DNA of 64,000 nt from Salipiger thiooxidans (GTDB lineage: Bacteria > Pseudomonadota > Alphaproteobacteria > Rhodobacterales > Rhodobacteraceae), in the NCBI RefSeq assembly GCF_900102075.1, contig NZ_FNAV01000022.1, forward strand, positions 1 through 64,000. Direction: 5' to 3'. Made by a program: the position numbers and the translations under genes. This document shows positions 6,133 to 64,000 of this stretch, in pieces. The stretch's first letter is position 1; every line of letters starts with the position of its first letter. The notes below the pieces were generated by a model. That model was not told where the DNA came from. It saw nothing but the letters and a program-made list of their open reading frames with translations, and searched no databases.

Positions 6133-7470
6133 TCAATGCGAAAGAAGAAAAGCCGGGTAGCTCTGGCCTTCGATCCCGCCCGGACAAAGCCGCGTCGTCC
6201 CGCCCGGACCGATCCCAAGCGCATCGCAGGCGACAAGCCTGTCCCCATCCCAGATCGCCGGCAAAGCCCGTGCAACGGCATGAGGCGGCCCGCCTGCCCG
6301 GCGTTCCGCCGACTGCCGCCAGCCGTCCTCGCCAAGGGCGCGAATCTCGAGCCCTGACGGTGTCGGGTGGCTGACGCGCCACCTGCCGTCCCAGAGCCCG
6401 CCCTCCGTCACGGCCCGTCGCAGCCCGGCGACGGCGGCATATTCGCGGAAGATCCGGATCTCGGCGCGGTCGCAGCGCAGCTCGGCCCCGTGCAGGGTAC
6501 CGCCCGCCCCGGCATCCAGCCGGTCGAGCAGCGCCTCGAGTTGCGCGGCGCGCGGGCGGTACTCCGCCGACGAGACGTATTGCAGCGCCGCCGCGAGAAG
6601 CCGCATGCGGGTGTCCGCCTCCAGCGCCGCGAAGGCGTCGCGCTCGAGGATGAGGTCGCCCGCGACGCCCTCGCGCCCGCAGCCGTGCCACGCGGCAACG
6701 GCGCGGGCCCGAAGCGCCTCGCGGGCGCGGGACATGCGCCCCGCCGTGGCGGCGAGGGTCTCGGTCCCGAGCCCCTGCGGCGCCAGCTCGGCAAGCAGCT
6801 TACGGACGCGGGCGCGGTCGTAGTGCGGATCCTCGTTGCTGGGGTCGTCAACCCAGCGCCCCTTCAGGACGCGCAGGTAGTGCCGCAGCTCCTCGCGCCC
6901 CATGTCGAGGCAGGGGCGGACGACCCGGAAGCCCTCGGTCGCGATGCCAGGCGGGCGGTCGCCGCAGCACTCATCCTCGGTCAGCGGTGCGGGCGGGGCC
7001 ACGTCGCGGATCTCGCGCACGGGGGCCATGGCGGAAAGCCCGTCGACACCGGAGCCCCGCGCAAGGCGCATGAGGAACGTCTCGGCCACGTCGTCGCGGG
7101 TGTGGGCGAAAAGCACCGCCGGCAGGCCGCCGCGCCAGCGCCCGATCAGCGAGAGCCGCCCGCGCCGCGCCGCGTCCATGAGGTTGCCCTGCCCGTCCCA
7201 GTGCCAGCGCAGCGTGGCATGGGGCCAGCCGAGCTCGGCGCAGGTGTCGCGCACCAGTGCGGCCTCGGCCGCCGCCTCGGGACGCAGCCCGTGGTCGACC
7301 GTCACCACCCAGAGCCGCACGCCCCAGCGGTGGGTCCAGTTGTGGGCGAGGGTGAGCATCGCCATGCTGTCGCCGCCGCCCGAGACGGCGAGACCGATGT
7401 CCGAGGGAAAATCCGGACCCAGCGCCGCGCCCATGGCATCGGCGAAGCGCTGGTCCAGGGACGGCGTCAC
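6133..7470 (-). CDS. tilS: tRNA(Ile)-lysidine synthase
   Basis: 445-residue enzyme that converts C34 of the CAU anticodon of tRNA-Ile2 to lysidine with ATP, essential for reading AUA codons. The PP-loop LAVSGGGDSMAM has SGGGDS at residues 30-35, followed by VTVDHGLRPEAAAEA and AHTRDDVAETFLMRLARGSG. The start is GTG at 7470, which overlaps the cpoB stop codon as GTGA; the longer upstream extension in this frame is only antisense-like coding. The C-terminal region is shorter and more variable than in E. coli TilS, as is usual in alphaproteobacteria. Confidence 0.93.
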   Translation of the reverse strand: MTPSLDQRFADAMGAALGPDFPSDIGLAVSGGGDSMAMLTLAHNWTHRWGVRLWVVTVDHGLRPEAAAEAALVRDTCAELGWPHATLRWHWDGQGNLMDAARRGRLSLIGRWRGGLPAVLFAHTRDDVAETFLMRLARGSGVDGLSAMAPVREIRDVAPPAPLTEDECCGDRPPGIATEGFRVVRPCLDMGREELRHYLRVLKGRWVDDPSNEDPHYDRARVRKLLAELAPQGLGTETLAATAGRMSRAREALRARAVAAWHGCGREGVAGDLILERDAFAALEADTRMRLLAAALQYVSSAEYRPRAAQLEALLDRLDAGAGGTLHGAELRCDRAEIRIFREYAAVAGLRRAVTEGGLWDGRWRVSHPTPSGLEIRALGEDGWRQSAERRAGGPPHAVARALPAIWDGDRLVACDALGIGPGGTTRLCPGGIEGQSYPAFLLSH

Positions 7471-8312
7471 TGGCAGCCGAGGCGGCCCATTTCGGCCTGT
7501 GCGTCGGTCACCGACGCCGACCCGGGGTAGCGGGCCGAGACCTCCGATAGGGTGACGCAGGCTTCGCTGACGCTGCCCAGTGCGCCCAGCGACGCCCCGA
7601 GCCGCCACAGCGCCTCGGGCGCGGCGTCGCTCTCGGGGTAGTTCGCGTAGGTGTCGAGAAAGCGCCGCGCGGCCTCGCGGGTGTTGCCCACGTCGGCCAG
7701 CGCCTTGCCTTCACCCAGCAGGGCCGCCGGTTCTAGGGGGCTCCCCGGAAAGGTCTGGCGGAAGGACGCAAACTGGTCCGCGGCGGATTGAAAGTCACCC
7801 GAGGCGAGCGCCTCCTGGGCTCGCCGGAAGTCCGTCTCTTCGCCCACGGCAAGTTGCGCGCCGCCCGCCTGCTGGTTGCCCTGCCCCCCCTGCACCGGAC
7901 CGGGAAGCGGCGCCGGCGCCGTCACCGAAGAGGTGGTGCTCTCGCCGCCGAGAAGCGGGCTGTCGCCAAGGCTGCCGATGTCGCAACCCGGCTCGATCTC
8001 GCAGAGCCGGAACTCGAGATCGCCGACCCGGTTGCTGCCGTCCTGGACCACGGTGTCGATCCGGTGCTGAAGCTCCTCGGTGCGGGCGGTGACGCGCTGC
8101 AGCTCGGCCTCGATGGTATTGACCCGGTCGAGCATGCCGCCACTAACCTGAACCCCGGTCGCCCCGGTGGTGTTCATCTCCTGCTTGAGACGCAGCAGCT
8201 CGCCCTTCAGGACCGTGAGGTCCTGCCGGATGTCGGCGAGCGTTTCCGAATCCTGGGCCTGCACGGCGGTCGCCGCGAGGCCCAGGCAGAGTGCGATTGC
8301 GACAAGGCGCAT
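7467..8312 (-). CDS. cpoB: Tol-Pal system protein CpoB (YbgF)
   Basis: 281-residue periplasmic coordinator that links the Tol-Pal machine to septal peptidoglycan synthesis. A Sec signal peptide MRLVAIALCLGLAATAVQAQ is followed by a coiled-coil of about 60 residues (ETLADIRQDLTVLKGELLRL onward) and, after a Pro/Gly-rich linker, three TPR repeats from about residue 160 to the end. The start at 8312 was chosen because the signal peptide begins there; upstream codons overlap pal. It begins 5 bases after the pal stop and overlaps tilS by four bases, so it lies in the pal-cpoB-tilS-ftsH run. Confidence 0.92.
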   Translation of the reverse strand: MRLVAIALCLGLAATAVQAQDSETLADIRQDLTVLKGELLRLKQEMNTTGATGVQVSGGMLDRVNTIEAELQRVTARTEELQHRIDTVVQDGSNRVGDLEFRLCEIEPGCDIGSLGDSPLLGGESTTSSVTAPAPLPGPVQGGQGNQQAGGAQLAVGEETDFRRAQEALASGDFQSAADQFASFRQTFPGSPLEPAALLGEGKALADVGNTREAARRFLDTYANYPESDAAPEALWRLGASLGALGSVSEACVTLSEVSARYPGSASVTDAQAEMGRLGCQ

Positions 8313-57610: not shown

Positions 57611-60600
57611 TCACACCACCGCCTCGACCAGCGCCGCCACGTCGCTGAGGCATCTGCGGCGAAGCTCGTCCACGAGGTCCGAACGCGCCTGCGGGTCCGA
57701 CGGCCAGAGCGCCATCTCGACCGCCCGGACGTAGTGGGTGACCAGCCCGATGGGCTCGTCCGAGGCAAAGGCGGTCAGCGCATCCATGTGCACGCGCGCC
57801 AGGTCGCGGTCTTTGTCGAGGATCGCCCGCTCCAGCACGGAGGCATGAAACCAGATCACCGCGTGGGCCAGCGAGCCGCGCGCGAGGCAGGCGAGGCCGT
57901 CGGCGATCTCCTGGTCCCGGGCCTCGCGATCCTCGGCCACCAGCGCGGCGAAACCGAAGATCGTGCCGCCGACATAGGCGTCGGTCCCGGCGTCGGGCAG
58001 CAGCGCCGCGATGCGGCTGCGGGCGGCTTCGGCATCGCCGCCCCGCAACGCGCTGAACGCCTTCAGCGTCTCCACGTCCTTGGAGAACCGGCTCTCGCCC
58101 GGGGTCAGCGCCTCGATGGCGGCAAGATCCTCGTCGAGCCCCTCGATATCGCCGTTCATCAGCCGCATCTCGGCACGGACCTCGCGGGCGATGAGCTCGG
58201 TGCGCACCGCCCCGCACTGCCGGGCGCTGTCGACGGCGATGTCGGCGAGCAGGTGGGCATGCGGGCCCGGGTCCGCGAAGAAGAGTGCGAAGGCCCGCAT
58301 GAAGAGGTACTCCTCGCGCACCAGCCCGAGCCCGGCCTCCTCGGCGATCTCGATGGCGCGTGAGAAATGCCGGTGCGCAGAGGCGAAACGCCCGGCGGCA
58401 TAGGTCGCGTCACCGATGCCGCCATGCCCCCGGGCGATGCCGCGCGGATCGCCGGTCGCCTCGGCCGCTGCCAGCGACGCGCGGTGCTGGGCAAGGCATT
58501 CGGCCAGTTCGCCCCGAAGGAAGGCGCGGTTGCCGCGCTGCTCGTGGATCTCGGCGCGCCCGAGCCCGGTCAGGCCGATGCTGTCGGCGATCTCCTCGGC
58601 GGCATCGAGCACGCGGTCTGCCTCGTCGCCACGCCCCAGCCGGTGCAGCACCAGCGCCTGCCGGCACAGCATGGCGGCGCGGGTCTCGGCGCGGATCGCC
58701 TTGCCGTGGGCGGCGCGGTAATCGTCGAGCGCCCCCTTCATGTCGCCGCGGATCCGCCGCAGCCCGGCGCGACAGGAGTGCAGCTCGGCCATGGCCTCGG
58801 GGTCGCCGTCCCGGGCTAGCCCCGCCTCGATATAGGGATAGGCCGCAGCAAAGCGCCGGGCGGCGATCATCGCGTTGGCGGCCCCGGCAGCGGCGCGGCT
58901 CGCCTCGGCGGCATAGTCGGTGTGCAGCGCGTGGTTGGCCCAGAGGATCGGGTCGTGGCCACGGTAGTACACCGCCGCGCGGGCGTGACCGGCCTGCCGG
59001 GCCTCGGGCGGTATCGCCTCGTAGATCGCCCGGTATACGAGGTCGTGGCCAAACGCGAAGCCGGTCCCGGTGGCATGCAGCAGGTCGCCGCTCTGCCGGG
59101 GGCGGGCGGACTCGGGGAAGATCGCGGCGAAGTCTTCGGGATCGAAGGAGGTCCCGAGGATCGACGCCCGGCGCAGCGCCGCGCGGTCCGCCTCGGGCAG
59201 GCGCTCGATCTGTTCCTGCACGAGCTCGGTCACCGTCATCGGCAGCGCGCCCTCGGTCCAGTTCGCCTCGAGAAGGCGGATCAGGAAGAGCGGGTGCCCG
59301 GCGGCGCGGTCGATGGCCGCATCGGGGGCGCTCACCCCTGGCGCGATGGCGCGGACAAGGTCACGCGCCGCGGTCTCGGGCAGCGGCGGTAGCGTGATGC
59401 GCACCACGCCCGATCGCGCCCGGGCCGCAAGGCGATGGTCGAGGCTGCCGTCATGGGGCCGCTCGGTCAGCAGCAGGATCACCGGGCTGTCCTGCAACCC
59501 GCTCATCAGCCCGAGAAGGAAGTCGCTCGCACCGACCGGGCTCCAGTGGCAGTCCTCGATGAGCACCAGCAGCCCGCCGGTCTCGACCGCGGCCTGCCTC
59601 AGCGAGTCGGCGAGCAACTCGATGATCAGCCGCTGCTGCACGTCCGGATCGAGCGCGCTCATCCGCAGCATCGCGTCGGCGCCGATCTGCGGCTCGACGA
59701 GCCACGACAGCACGGCGCGCTCGACGGCGGTGGCGCGCGGGCCGGGCAAGGGCGGCTGCGGCAGCTGCGCCACCAGCCGCTGCGCCGGGTGACGCTCACC
59801 GGGCGAGAAGGCGTCGAAGCCGATCTCGACGGTGGTGGCGCCTGCCCCTTCGGCCCGGCGCAGGATCTCGCGCGCGAGGCGGCTCTTGCCGATCCCGGCC
59901 TCGCCGGAGAGGTGGATCACGAGGCTGCTGTCGGCGTTGCGGGCGGCGGCAATCGCCGCTTCCGCCTGCGCAAGTTCAAGCTCGCGGCCCACCATCGGCG
60001 CCTCGGGACGCGGCGCCGAGGCGCCCGGCCGCAACGGCACCGCCCGCTGCATGGGCTCGGCGGGAAGCCCGAGGCGCGTTGCGAGATCGCGGGCCAGCAG
60101 CACGTCGCCCGACTCGGCCATGGCGGCGACCCGGCGCGCCTCGACCAGCGACTGCGCGGAAAGCTCGTCGCTGGCGGTCGCGGCGACCATGCCGAAGGCA
60201 AGCCCCTGCGCCGCGAGGTCGGCAAGCTCGAGCGCGGCGGTGGAGACGGCGCGCAACTCCTGCCCGGTGAAGAGGAAGACGATCTCGCCGGGGCCCGAGG
60301 CCCGCTCCTCGGCGCCCGCGGCTAGCGCGGCGCTGCGCAGGGCCGACCAGTCGCGCGCCCCCTCGGTCTCGAAGCCGAGCAGCAGGTAGGCGGGCGGAGC
60401 CTCGGGCGGCACCTCCGCCTCCGGTTCGGTCGCCACGGGTTTGCCACCGCCGCCCCGCCGGATGCGCTCATACAGCGCGCGGGTCTCGGGTTCCGGGGCG
60501 ACGCCCATGTCGCGCCGGAGCGCCTCTTCGAGGGTCTCGTACCTCGCCTGCGCCGCGCGCCGCATGCCCCGGCCCGCATCCGCGATCATCAGCCGGCGGT

Positions 60601-61141
60601 GGGCGTCCTCGTTGAGCGGGTCCAGCAGCAGCAACCGGTGCGCCAGCGCCGGGGTCTCGGCGCCGTCGTCGCTGCGCTCCAGCTCCGTCGCCAGCGCGTC
60701 GCAGGCCAGCCCTGCGAGCCGCGCCCGCTCGGCCGCGAGCGCCTGCCCGAGGTCCGAGGCACCGGTGTCGGCGCCATCGAAGAACGGCCCCCGGTAGAGG
60801 CGCACCGCCTCGGCCAGATCGTTGCGCGAGAGCGCCGCGTGGAAGGCGTCGAGATCGGTGGTCACCTCCGGCCCGAGACTCAGCTCGTCGCCCTCCGAGA
60901 TCACCCACTCGACCCCCGCTGCGCGGCGGATCTGCGACAGGGACTGGCGGAGACTGACCCGCGCCTGCTCGCCGTCACTCGCCTCCCAGAGGAGCGAGGC
61001 GAGCCGCTGGCGGGGCATCGTGCGGCGGCGCGCCGCGGCGAGCAGTCCGAGCAGCATCCTGGCCTTGCGGGCGCTCAGCGAAATCCGGGCGCCATTCCGT
61101 GACATCGCGAATCCCCCGAGGAATTCGAGCCAGAGAGTCAT
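57611..61141 (-). CDS. SARP/BTAD-type transcriptional regulator with AAA-like ATPase and TPR domains
   Basis: 1176 residues. The N-terminus (1-95) is an OmpR-like winged helix with LSARKARMLLGLLAA, followed by a bacterial transcriptional activation (BTAD) domain (96-230, TDLDAFHAALSRNDLAEAVRLYRG split). Residues 250-370 look like a degraded cyclase-homology region. An STAND-type ATPase begins near 383 (MVGRELEL) with Walker A GEAGIGKS at 413-420. About 720-1150 is TPR-like. No C-terminal LuxR HTH is present. It is divergent from the methyltransferase/YRGVAY genes across 270 bases and probably controls them; the inducing signal is unknown. Confidence 0.85.
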   Translation of the reverse strand: MTLWLEFLGGFAMSRNGARISLSARKARMLLGLLAAARRRTMPRQRLASLLWEASDGEQARVSLRQSLSQIRRAAGVEWVISEGDELSLGPEVTTDLDAFHAALSRNDLAEAVRLYRGPFFDGADTGASDLGQALAAERARLAGLACDALATELERSDDGAETPALAHRLLLLDPLNEDAHRRLMIADAGRGMRRAAQARYETLEEALRRDMGVAPEPETRALYERIRRGGGGKPVATEPEAEVPPEAPPAYLLLGFETEGARDWSALRSAALAAGAEERASGPGEIVFLFTGQELRAVSTAALELADLAAQGLAFGMVAATASDELSAQSLVEARRVAAMAESGDVLLARDLATRLGLPAEPMQRAVPLRPGASAPRPEAPMVGRELELAQAEAAIAAARNADSSLVIHLSGEAGIGKSRLAREILRRAEGAGATTVEIGFDAFSPGERHPAQRLVAQLPQPPLPGPRATAVERAVLSWLVEPQIGADAMLRMSALDPDVQQRLIIELLADSLRQAAVETGGLLVLIEDCHWSPVGASDFLLGLMSGLQDSPVILLLTERPHDGSLDHRLAARARSGVVRITLPPLPETAARDLVRAIAPGVSAPDAAIDRAAGHPLFLIRLLEANWTEGALPMTVTELVQEQIERLPEADRAALRRASILGTSFDPEDFAAIFPESARPRQSGDLLHATGTGFAFGHDLVYRAIYEAIPPEARQAGHARAAVYYRGHDPILWANHALHTDYAAEASRAAAGAANAMIAARRFAAAYPYIEAGLARDGDPEAMAELHSCRAGLRRIRGDMKGALDDYRAAHGKAIRAETRAAMLCRQALVLHRLGRGDEADRVLDAAEEIADSIGLTGLGRAEIHEQRGNRAFLRGELAECLAQHRASLAAAEATGDPRGIARGHGGIGDATYAAGRFASAHRHFSRAIEIAEEAGLGLVREEYLFMRAFALFFADPGPHAHLLADIAVDSARQCGAVRTELIAREVRAEMRLMNGDIEGLDEDLAAIEALTPGESRFSKDVETLKAFSALRGGDAEAARSRIAALLPDAGTDAYVGGTIFGFAALVAEDREARDQEIADGLACLARGSLAHAVIWFHASVLERAILDKDRDLARVHMDALTAFASDEPIGLVTHYVRAVEMALWPSDPQARSDLVDELRRRCLSDVAALVEAVV

Positions 61142-61320
61142 GCTTTCACGCGCCTTTCACGCATGGCCACCCGACCGAATTCACGCCGCCGGATCAATAC
61201 GACGTCACCACAACCAATCAGGTGTACCGACAATGCAATTCAAACAGTTTTTTACCATCGGGGGACGGTTGCGGCGAAATAAGAGACCGCGCGCGTTCCC
61301 GCATGTTTCGCGGCATCTGA

Positions 61321-61336
61321 AGGCCGATATCGGCCT
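61321..61336. promoter_or_regulatory. 16-base perfect palindrome upstream of homocysteine methyltransferase gene
   Basis: AGGCCGATATCGGCCT is fully self-complementary. It lies 75 bases before the methyltransferase ATG in the divergent region with the SARP gene, whose base composition is AT-richer than the surroundings (TTTTTT at about 61248). A GGGGC-TTCC-GCCCC hairpin follows at 61365-61378. Candidate operator and leader structure. Confidence 0.45.
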
Positions 61337-61411
61337 CCCCCAGAACGATCCGCTTGATGAAATGACGGGGCTTCCGCCCCGGACCCAACGCCCTTTTCTA
61401 TGGTGATTCAA

Positions 61412-62434
61412 ATGACAACCTATCGCAATAACCTTCCGCAATTCGACGGCACGATTCTGCTGACCGATTCCGGGCTCGAAACGACGCTTATCTTTCACGA
61501 CGGTATCGACCTACCGGCATTCGCCGCATATCCGCTGATGGAGACGGACTCCGGGCGCGAGACGCTGGCCCGCTACTACCGCCGCCACCTGTCCATTGCC
61601 GCCGACCATGGCACCGGTTTCGTGCTCGAGGCGCCGACCTGGCGCGCCAGCCGCGACTGGGGTGCCGAGCTCGGCCACGGCCCCGAGGACCTCGCGCGGC
61701 TCAACCATGCGGCGATCGGTTTCCTGTCGGACCTGCGCGCGTCGGCCCGCGGCGTCCGCCCCGTGGTGATCTCGGGCAACATCGGCCCGAGAGGGGACGG
61801 CTACGTCGCCGACACCGCAATGACCGCCGCCGAGGCCGAGGCCTACCACGCCGAGCAGATCGGCTGGTTCGCCGAAACCGACGTGGACATGGTGACAGCC
61901 GTGACCCTCTCGACCGTGGCCGAAGGGGTCGGCGCGATCCGCGCCGCCTGCAAGCGCGGCCTGCCGGTCGTGGTCTCCTACACCGTCGAGACCGACGGTC
62001 GCCTGCCGGACGGCACGCCGCTCGGCACCGCCTTCGAGCAGACCGACGCCGAGACCGACGGGGCCGCCGCCTACTTCATGGTGAACTGCGCGCACCCGGA
62101 CCATTTCCGCGACGCCCTCGCGGCGGGCTCGGGCTGGCTCGAGCGGATCGGCGGGGTGCGTGCCAACGCCTCGCGCCTCAGCCACGCCGAGCTCGACGCG
62201 GCGGAGGAGCTCGACGCCGGGAACCCGGCGGAGCTCGGCCATGACTATGCCCGCCTGCGCCGGCTTCTGCCGAACCTCGTGGTGCTGGGCGGCTGCTGCG
62301 GCACCGACCATCGCCACGTCGAGGCCATCGCCGACTGCTGTGTTGCCCGCACAGCGCCTGATCGACCTGCCGCCGTCCGGAATTTGCCGGGCGGCGTCCT
62401 CCTCCCCCCATTTTTCAAGGAGCATTTGCAATGA
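61412..62434 (+). CDS. Homocysteine S-methyltransferase family protein
   Basis: 340-residue zinc-dependent methyltransferase domain like MmuM/BHMT. The three zinc-binding cysteines are Cys226 (MVNCAHP) and Cys295/Cys296 (GGCCGTD). The N-terminal DSGLETTL and EAPTWRAS match the family. ATG at 61412 has GGTGA five bases upstream; an ATG four codons earlier lacks a site. The donor is unknown: S-methylmethionine, betaine or another sulfonium. Its stop overlaps the start of the 79-residue repeat protein. Confidence 0.85.
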   Translation: MTTYRNNLPQFDGTILLTDSGLETTLIFHDGIDLPAFAAYPLMETDSGRETLARYYRRHLSIAADHGTGFVLEAPTWRASRDWGAELGHGPEDLARLNHAAIGFLSDLRASARGVRPVVISGNIGPRGDGYVADTAMTAAEAEAYHAEQIGWFAETDVDMVTAVTLSTVAEGVGAIRAACKRGLPVVVSYTVETDGRLPDGTPLGTAFEQTDAETDGAAAYFMVNCAHPDHFRDALAAGSGWLERIGGVRANASRLSHAELDAAEELDAGNPAELGHDYARLRRLLPNLVVLGGCCGTDHRHVEAIADCCVARTAPDRPAAVRNLPGGVLLPPFFKEHLQ

Positions 62435-62670
62435 CCGCTCTGACCCCGACCTTCGCGCTCTTCGACGGGCCCGCCCTCCCCGACCGCCAGGGCGGTGAAC
62501 CGGTGCTGCGCTATCGCGGCGTCGCCTACCGCCGCTCAGAGCTGACCCGGCCCCGGCGCGCCGAGGCCACGCGGCTCATGTACCGCGGTGTCGCCTACCG
62601 TCCCACGGCTGCCGCCCCCGCGCCCGAACCGGCGCCTGGGCAACGGCGCTATCGCGGCGTCGCTTACTGA
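62431..62670 (+). CDS. Small protein with three YRGVAY repeats (DUF4278-like)
   Basis: 79 residues. The hexapeptide YRGVAY occurs at 28-33, 51-56 and 74-79, exactly 23 residues apart, the last ending at the stop codon. Copies differ by synonymous codons (TAT/TAC, GGC/GGT, GCC/GCT), so the peptide is conserved, not a recent DNA duplication. YRG-Y motifs recall DUF4278, known mainly from cyanobacteria. AAGGAG lies eight bases before the ATG, which overlaps the methyltransferase stop. No signal peptide; linkers are rich in Pro, Ala and Arg. Function unknown. Confidence 0.85.
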   Translation: MTALTPTFALFDGPALPDRQGGEPVLRYRGVAYRRSELTRPRRAEATRLMYRGVAYRPTAAAPAPEPAPGQRRYRGVAY

Positions 62671-62739
62671 CCATTTCCAACCTCTCCCCTGTCGCCACCC
62701 CATTTCGACGACAGACCATTTCCCCGAAAGGACGTCCCC

Positions 62740-64000
62740 ATGTCGTTCCGACTGACCTGTGCCGCCATTCTCGCGGCCACCACCGCCCTCACCCTGCCTG
62801 CCGTCGCGCACGAGACCAACCGGCGCACCGAGCTCTACAAACCCGGCGTCGAACACGCCGCCTCCGAGCTGTCCGCGTCGGATGCCGCCTCGGTCGCGGC
62901 GTTCTCGGGCTACGGCGATTTCGGCTTCGATCCCCGCACCGAGGTGCCCGAGGCCCGCGCCGCCTTCGAACAGGGCATCGCGCTGCTCTGGGGGTTCAAC
63001 CACGCCGCCGCCGTCCAGGCGTTCCGCGCCGCGCAGCAGGCCGACCCGCAATGTTCCGCCTGCTACTGGGCCGAGGCCTATGCGCTCGGGCCGAACCTGA
63101 ACGACGGCATGCATGACGAGAACGTCACCCCGGCCTTCGACGCCGCCTGGACCGCCGTCGACACCGCCGTCACCGACAAGGAAATGGCGCTCGCCCGTGC
63201 GCTGGTGCTGCGCTACGCCTTCGAGGGCGGCAACCGCGAGCTGATGAACCGCGCCTTCGCCGAGGCGATGGGCGACGTGGCCGCGCGGTTCCCCGGCGAC
63301 GCCAACATCCAGGTGTTCCACGCCGACGCGCTGATGAACATGCAGCCGTGGGATTACTGGGAGGCCGACGGCGTCACGCCCAAGGGCAACGGCGCCGAGA
63401 TCCTCGCCTCGCTCGAGCGCGCCATGGCGTTGTCGCCCGAGCACCCGGCGGCGCTGCATCTCTACATCCACGCGGTCGAGGCCTCGGCCGAACCCGCGCG
63501 GGCCGAGGCGGCGGCGGATGCGCTCCGTGGCAGTGTGCCCATGGCGGGGCACCTCGTGCACATGCCCGCGCATATCTACAACCGCATCGGCCGCTACGGC
63601 GATTCCATCGCGGTGAACGAGGCGGCGATTGCCGCGGACGAGGCCTATCTCGAGGCCGCGGGCGACGCGGCCAGCGCGCTCTATCGCTTCGGCTACTACC
63701 CGCACAACATCCACTTCCTGCTGGTCGGCGCCCAGATGGCCGGCATCAAGGAAGACGCGCTGGCGGCGGCCCAGAAGCTGGCGGATGTCACCTCGGACGA
63801 GGTCGGCGCCTCGCTTGCCTGGGTTCAGGCGATCGAGACGGCCCCCTACACGGCGCACGCGCAGTTCAGCACACCGGAGGAGATCCTGGCGCTGCCGGAC
63901 CCGGGCGATGCCTTTCCCTTCGTGAAGGGCCACTGGCACTATGCCCGGGGCATCGCGCTGGCGCTGGTGGGAGATCTGGACGGCGCGCTGGCCGAGCAGA
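62740..64000 (+). CDS. Secreted TPR-repeat protein, partial at window end
   Basis: At least 420 residues; no stop before the window ends. Signal peptide MSFRLTCAAILAATTALTLPAVAHE. Then FEQGIALLWGFNHAAAVQAF (TPR-like, about 76-95), CSAC at 105-108, WAEAYALGPNLND, and a conserved HMPAHIYNRIGRYGDSIAVN (about 275-294). The CxxC and helical repeats are typical of a widespread but uncharacterised periplasmic TPR group. AAAGGA lies seven bases before the ATG. It follows the YRGVAY gene by 69 bases and probably shares its transcript. Confidence 0.85.
   Translation, partial: MSFRLTCAAILAATTALTLPAVAHETNRRTELYKPGVEHAASELSASDAASVAAFSGYGDFGFDPRTEVPEARAAFEQGIALLWGFNHAAAVQAFRAAQQADPQCSACYWAEAYALGPNLNDGMHDENVTPAFDAAWTAVDTAVTDKEMALARALVLRYAFEGGNRELMNRAFAEAMGDVAARFPGDANIQVFHADALMNMQPWDYWEADGVTPKGNGAEILASLERAMALSPEHPAALHLYIHAVEASAEPARAEAAADALRGSVPMAGHLVHMPAHIYNRIGRYGDSIAVNEAAIAADEAYLEAAGDAASALYRFGYYPHNIHFLLVGAQMAGIKEDALAAAQKLADVTSDEVGASLAWVQAIETAPYTAHAQFSTPEEILALPDPGDAFPFVKGHWHYARGIALALVGDLDGALAEQ

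Follow-up and report, generated by a model that had tools for sequence, protein, structure and literature searches.

DUF4278 (PF14105) is a domain known chiefly from cyanobacteria, where its relatives are tied to the control of nitrogen assimilation. According to excerpts of PMC6316151, it forms the N-terminal moiety of IF17 (GifB), the cyanobacterial glutamine synthetase inactivating factor; the DUF4278 part stabilises IF17 and seems to strengthen the inactivation, and the same excerpts also call the N-terminus disposable for IF17 function. Homologues of gifB were identified via DUF4278, as stated in an excerpt of PMC11288750. A small, stand-alone and arginine-rich DUF4278 protein, PMM1846, is described from marine picocyanobacteria and is reported, again in excerpt, to be under a glutamine riboswitch and to have an NtcA motif (PMC6316151). 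Excerpts of the full-text literature on DUF4278 gave no molecular function for the stand-alone protein, and a literature search for the accession PF14105 retrieved nothing. The small cyanobacterial PII-binding protein PirA (Ssr0692) was set aside: no homology is claimed, the excerpts of PMC8092223 contain neither YRG nor 'unknown function', and this paper was not among the full-text matches for DUF4278.

In the window, by which we mean the whole 64,000-nucleotide stretch of Salipiger thiooxidans DNA analysed here, the protein of a 79-codon ORF matched PF14105 with 45.9 bits (gathering cut-off 25.3; E 7.5e-12) over profile positions 3-57 of 57, and DUF4278 was the sole Pfam family reported for it at E <= 10. 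This profile search bears out the DUF4278 resemblance that the first-pass annotation had read from the YRG motif. NCBIfam gave no match at E <= 1, and in PHROGs there were just two matches, both weak (E 0.0034 and 0.0044) and both to families whose function is unknown. Judged from its sequence, ORF 62431-62670 is a genuine, intact small alphaproteobacterial DUF4278 gene with the following features:

62417..62422, + strand: AAGGAG, Shine-Dalgarno-like, 8 nt 5' of the DUF4278 ATG (read from the sequence)
62431..62670, + strand: DUF4278 gene, ORF of 79 aa; PF14105 over residues 26-79, E 7.5e-12
62512..62529, + strand: YRGVAY copy 1, residues 28-33; predicted hairpin strands 25-28 and 31-34 (AlphaFold2)
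62581..62598, + strand: YRGVAY copy 2, residues 51-56; predicted strands 49-51 and 54-56 (AlphaFold2)
62650..62667, + strand: YRGVAY copy 3, residues 74-79, C-terminal; short bridge 73-74/77-78 in the model

The window protein exceeds the curated cut-off along almost the entire DUF4278 profile, but differs from the described family in its alphaproteobacterial host, in ending with the third motif and in an N-terminus longer than that of many members. It resembles the N-terminal moiety of IF17, as excerpted, whereas nothing follows its third motif: the C-terminal glutamine synthetase inactivating region is absent from the window protein, which ends at the third YRG. Like the short DUF4278 proteins of the PMM1846 type in the excerpted account it is small, stand-alone and arginine-rich, but it differs from them in having no Rfam match, neither in the window at gathering level nor in 61000-62800 at E <= 1. 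Glutamine riboswitches are represented in Rfam, and the lack of a match thus means that the window holds no known glutamine riboswitch; control of the gene by such an element was discarded as a candidate, since Rfam found none. No recognised nitrogen-control genes adjoin the window gene.

A single-sequence search with P0001 found five proteins, P0001 included, and a profile of seven members yielded 113 reported homologues from 7986 scored candidates. Their sources include Rhodobacteraceae bacterium DSL-40, Alloyangia pacifica, Salipiger bermudensis, Roseivivax sp. THAF40, Jannaschia seohaensis and several cyanobacteria. With F, H or W accepted in place of Y and K in place of R, 98 of the 113 homologues had three YRG-like motifs, 12 had two and 3 had four; with strict YRG, 95 had exactly three, and the remaining 18 were omitted from the group tables. 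Both spacings fell between 21 and 27 residues in 86 of the 113 proteins, all 86 among the 98 with three motifs, and the window protein with its three YRG at 23 and 23 lies inside this range. Spacing went with subfamily: the majority of window-type proteins that stop at the third motif had about 23/23, and others had 23/25-26, 21/23 or 26-27/21-22. Thus repeat number is non-random, three motifs being the norm and spacing characteristic of each subfamily. The random repeat number that the first-pass annotation would have counted against its reading was not observed; neighbours were conserved only within subfamilies. One close homologue, P0003 (56 residues), is missing exactly one 23-residue unit, which could reflect faulty assembly or a recombination event among the copies.

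The conceptual translation confirmed that YRGVAY occurs three times with a period of 23 residues twice over, the last copy forming the C-terminus. The copies differ from each other by synonymous changes only (pairwise nucleotide identity 16/18, 17/18 and 15/18), and the two 17-residue linkers between them have just one residue in common. Motifs kept through synonymous changes beside linkers that have diverged to 1/17 agree with the selection on the peptide suggested earlier and argue against a fresh DNA duplication; a recent tandem duplication was rejected on the linkers. Shuffling the window protein produced a repeated 6-mer in 345 of 200,000 shuffles and, in 200,000 further shuffles, a 6-mer present three times in 3, even spacing not being demanded. 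GC by codon position was 0.78, 0.65 and 0.83 in the DUF4278 gene and 0.71, 0.51 and 0.86 in the upstream gene.

AlphaFold2, run with 91 sequences, modelled the window protein with mean pLDDT 74 and pTM 0.30. Strands were predicted at 25-28/31-34 and 49-51/54-56 with a bridge at the third motif, so that a strand or bridge flanks R-G in all three copies, where block-mean pLDDT was 72-86. A model of one member of a second subfamily (24 sequences; mean pLDDT 67, pTM 0.26) placed hairpins at the same motifs. Because pTM was 0.30 and 0.26, no overall fold is claimed; each YRG is predicted to be the turn of a short beta-hairpin, and the protein would be three local hairpins on a flexible string. A Foldseek comparison of the window-protein model with the PDB found no similar solved structure, and a profile search of solved structures gave no match.

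We tentatively favour, at somewhat below an even chance, a small regulator that would present its YRG hairpins to a partner protein, by analogy with the DUF4278 part of IF17. The protein would have no catalytic function, and nitrogen metabolism or amino-acid metabolism would be the most likely place to find the partner. The product of the upstream methyltransferase gene would be one candidate in the window, the pairing being optional. The PF14105 match, the three motifs, the predicted hairpins and the three genomes with a divergent PII gene described below are consistent with this reading. Against it, the IF17 domain is fused, belongs to another phylum and, in excerpt, is also called disposable (PMC6316151); pTM is low, the window gave no Rfam riboswitch match, recognised nitrogen-control genes do not adjoin the gene, and the gene is dispensable.

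Evenly spaced identical hexapeptides would also suit the multi-core peptide precursor proposed by the first-pass annotation, to be cleaved or modified into YRGVAY peptides, as would a transglutaminase-core gene situated some 4 kb further downstream and outside the window. This is nevertheless highly improbable: the motifs sit on predicted hairpins, some members extend far beyond the third motif (P0056 from Leptolyngbya by 59 residues), the linkers share no cleavage motif by eye, and among the ten neighbours scanned no recognised peptide-modifying, protease or peptide-exporting family was found, the upstream ABC pair being of importer type. The metal-binding repeat likewise suggested at first was rejected for a Cys/His type of site, the window protein having neither Cys nor His.

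The protein contains 14 Arg and has a net charge of +8, which is also the median among 20 window-type proteins, and a basic peptide binding RNA or DNA was considered on these grounds. In the 24 proteins of the PII-neighbour subfamily, however, the median net charge is +1 and reaches down to -6, so that basic charge is no family trait. Nucleic-acid binding is considered unlikely.

The genes around the ORF were:

57611..61141, - strand: divergent SARP-type regulator (BTAD, AAA_16, TPR_12; the SARP name is a reading of these domains)
61400..62434, + strand: homocysteine S-methyltransferase family gene (PF02574; ORF, Pfam), with an ATGA overlap with the DUF4278 start
62360..62431, + strand: about 24 extra residues at the methyltransferase C-terminus (C-termini compared by eye)
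62740..64000, + strand: TPR-like protein, 567 aa in all, running past the window (ORF; TPR_19 below cut-off)

The ATGA overlap with the methyltransferase, to which the gene had been called translationally coupled, is real in the window and arises because the methyltransferase C-terminus is extended there by about 24 residues. The extension is missing in the six homologues compared (L030-L035), and in genome G130 the DUF4278 start lies 65 nt past the methyltransferase stop. The overlap, which was not seen in the other two loci with a copy, would thus be a peculiarity of the window's lineage. In the window the extension reaches into DNA that is intergenic in the six homologues.

G130 has its DUF4278 gene in the same setting, flanked by the methyltransferase (69% identity) and TPR-like (72%) genes, with a divergent SARP-type gene present. 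Thirty methyltransferase loci, the best matches out of those in 81 of 394 genomes, were all scanned by tblastn and motif, and seven were read closely. An intact DUF4278 gene was found downstream in two (the window's genome, G000, and G130) and a degraded one, with an internal stop and broken frame, in G128 (L030), whose methyltransferase is 82-85% identical. For the other 27, none was detected in the roughly 1.2-1.5 kb scanned downstream; in G346 and G050 the methyltransferase and TPR genes are adjacent with no DUF4278 between them. Across the flanks examined at the 30 loci, the divergent SARP-type gene was present in 10 and the TPR gene in 4. Conversely, three of the five genomes with a DUF4278 gene carry it away from the methyltransferase. 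The pairing is therefore optional and not general. Since neither gene tracks the other across genomes, methylation by the neighbouring enzyme, the substrate role once proposed, was rejected as a general explanation. That the protein is a dedicated partner or regulator of the adjacent methyltransferase is doubtful as well: it would suit the shared position in G000 and G130 and the degraded copy in G128, but not the 27 loci without a detected copy, which include L032 and L033 with the same SARP-methyltransferase-TPR order, nor the three genomes with the gene elsewhere.

In those three genomes (G008, G017 and G194), the divergent neighbour of the DUF4278 gene encodes a PII protein whose N-terminus is longer by about 50 residues, a segment that looks ribbon-helix-helix-like by eye:

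L014:4936-5433, - strand: PII protein with extra N-terminus
L015:7974-8498, - strand: PII protein with extra N-terminus
L016:8296-8793, + strand: PII protein with extra N-terminus

The start codons of the two genes are 198, 244 and 289 bp apart, distances that rest on the assigned PII start. In Pfam, P-II was the only family above cut-off for the three PII proteins, one of which also had a sub-threshold DUF3240 overlap, and a literature search demanding all four terms retrieved nothing on such N-terminal PII fusions. A scan of genome contigs for extended PII found five loci, three of them with DUF4278 adjoining; the other two, L021 and L022, had no ORF with two or more YRG in the DNA examined, and one of their PII proteins still has YRGAEY. 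By eye, L014 and L016 resemble each other in wider gene order, and each of the three DUF4278 loci has an HNH-like gene nearby, so that these may share one ancestral arrangement.

PII (GlnB/GlnK), a nitrogen sensor, is a trimer with three T-loops. EIYRGAEY is present in the PII proteins adjoining the three DUF4278 genes, and in the window's genome two PII-type proteins were identified, with HTELYRGAEYVV and HTEIYRGAEYAV; the T-loop corresponds to this stretch and contains a tyrosine subject to modification. The window's YRGVAY shares with it Y-R-G-x-x-Y only, the preceding residues differing, and YRGAEY itself, without any substitution, is found in 5 of the 113 DUF4278 homologues. The window protein differs from PII in having no P-II (PF00543) match, the likeness being one of the hexapeptide alone. 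The three PII-neighbour proteins belong to the 23/25-26 subfamily, where the fifth residue of the middle repeat is Glu in 19 of 24 proteins, compared with 5 of 74 other homologues with at least three YRG (Fisher p 1.5e-11, uncorrected for relatedness and for groups drawn after inspection). When the 24 were defined by spacing, the count was 18/24; 19/24 belongs to a slightly different list with P0044 in and P0049 out. As the subfamily proteins are related, the contrast does not represent 24 independent events. New here are the divergent extended-PII gene in three of the five genomes and a subfamily middle repeat that nears or equals YRGAEY; searches found no literature on YRGAEY or, with three of four terms demanded, on T-loop mimicry together with PII.

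One explanation would be that the YRGxxY hairpins are mimics of the T-loop tip of PII and either compete for PII targets or receive the modification of the PII-modifying enzyme, three copies in one chain paralleling the three T-loops of the trimer. The T-loop sequences of the genome's own and the adjoining PII proteins, the middle-repeat Glu and the exact YRGAEY copies all point this way. We regard it as unlikely all the same: the window protein has just Y-R-G-x-x-Y with unlike flanking residues, the 24 subfamily proteins are related and were grouped after their sequences had been viewed, the neighbourhood is known for 3 of the 24, the three PII loci may stem from one ancestral arrangement, and L021 and L022 hold extended PII, one still with YRGAEY, in the absence of a multi-YRG ORF. 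Rather unlikely, too, is the broader version, in which DUF4278 proteins of cyanobacteria and alphaproteobacteria would be single-chain decoys of the PII trimer, their three T-loop-tip-like hairpins disturbing PII signalling, with one alphaproteobacterial subfamily paired with the N-terminally extended PII and its middle hairpin converged on the T-loop sequence. The resemblance amounts to a lead rather than proof. An alphaproteobacterial DUF4278 outside the riboswitch and NtcA setting, together with a PII-adjoining subfamily, makes it simple to ask if PII or its partners are what the three hairpins act on; the answer would bear on the role of the N-terminal half of IF17.

The gene is sparsely distributed, and the first-pass annotation was right to call its host unusual. 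Within the window's family, the Pfam model had matches at E <= 0.01 in at least 5 of the 394 genomes, three of them exceeding the PF14105 cut-off, and an alignment of other members matched at least 6 of 394, the sixth match being degenerate. Matches numbered at least 1 of 385 genomes in the class sample, at least 2 of 176 in the order sample (one of them weak) and at least 1 of 190 in the phylum sample. All these counts are lower bounds, part of the first-look candidates having been scored (14 or 15 per genome in the class and alignment searches, about 30 in those of order and phylum). Among 61 genomes around G194 there were three matches, all previously found. Two matches were not counted as members: that in G018 (L028) is degenerate, and that in G830 (L063) is weak, spans a stop and has no ORF with two YRG-like motifs. 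The window's own genome has one copy. Unfound in most relatives searched and degraded in one, the gene is dispensable. Such sporadic occurrence, the degraded copy in G128 and the unit missing from P0003 would fit a relic or accidental ORF without function, which we consider quite improbable, because the motifs are kept while the linkers diverge to 1/17 and YRG is kept in distant homologues.

A scan of genome contigs with P0001 found no relative, and neither plasmid records (queries P0001, P0037 and P0115) nor phage records (query P0096) gave a match. Small proteins with two YRG motifs were seen on viral contigs of IMG/VR, at L064:5013-5180 and L065:4989-5156, and the second of these contigs also encodes, at 6859-7491, a protein that is ThyX-like by eye.
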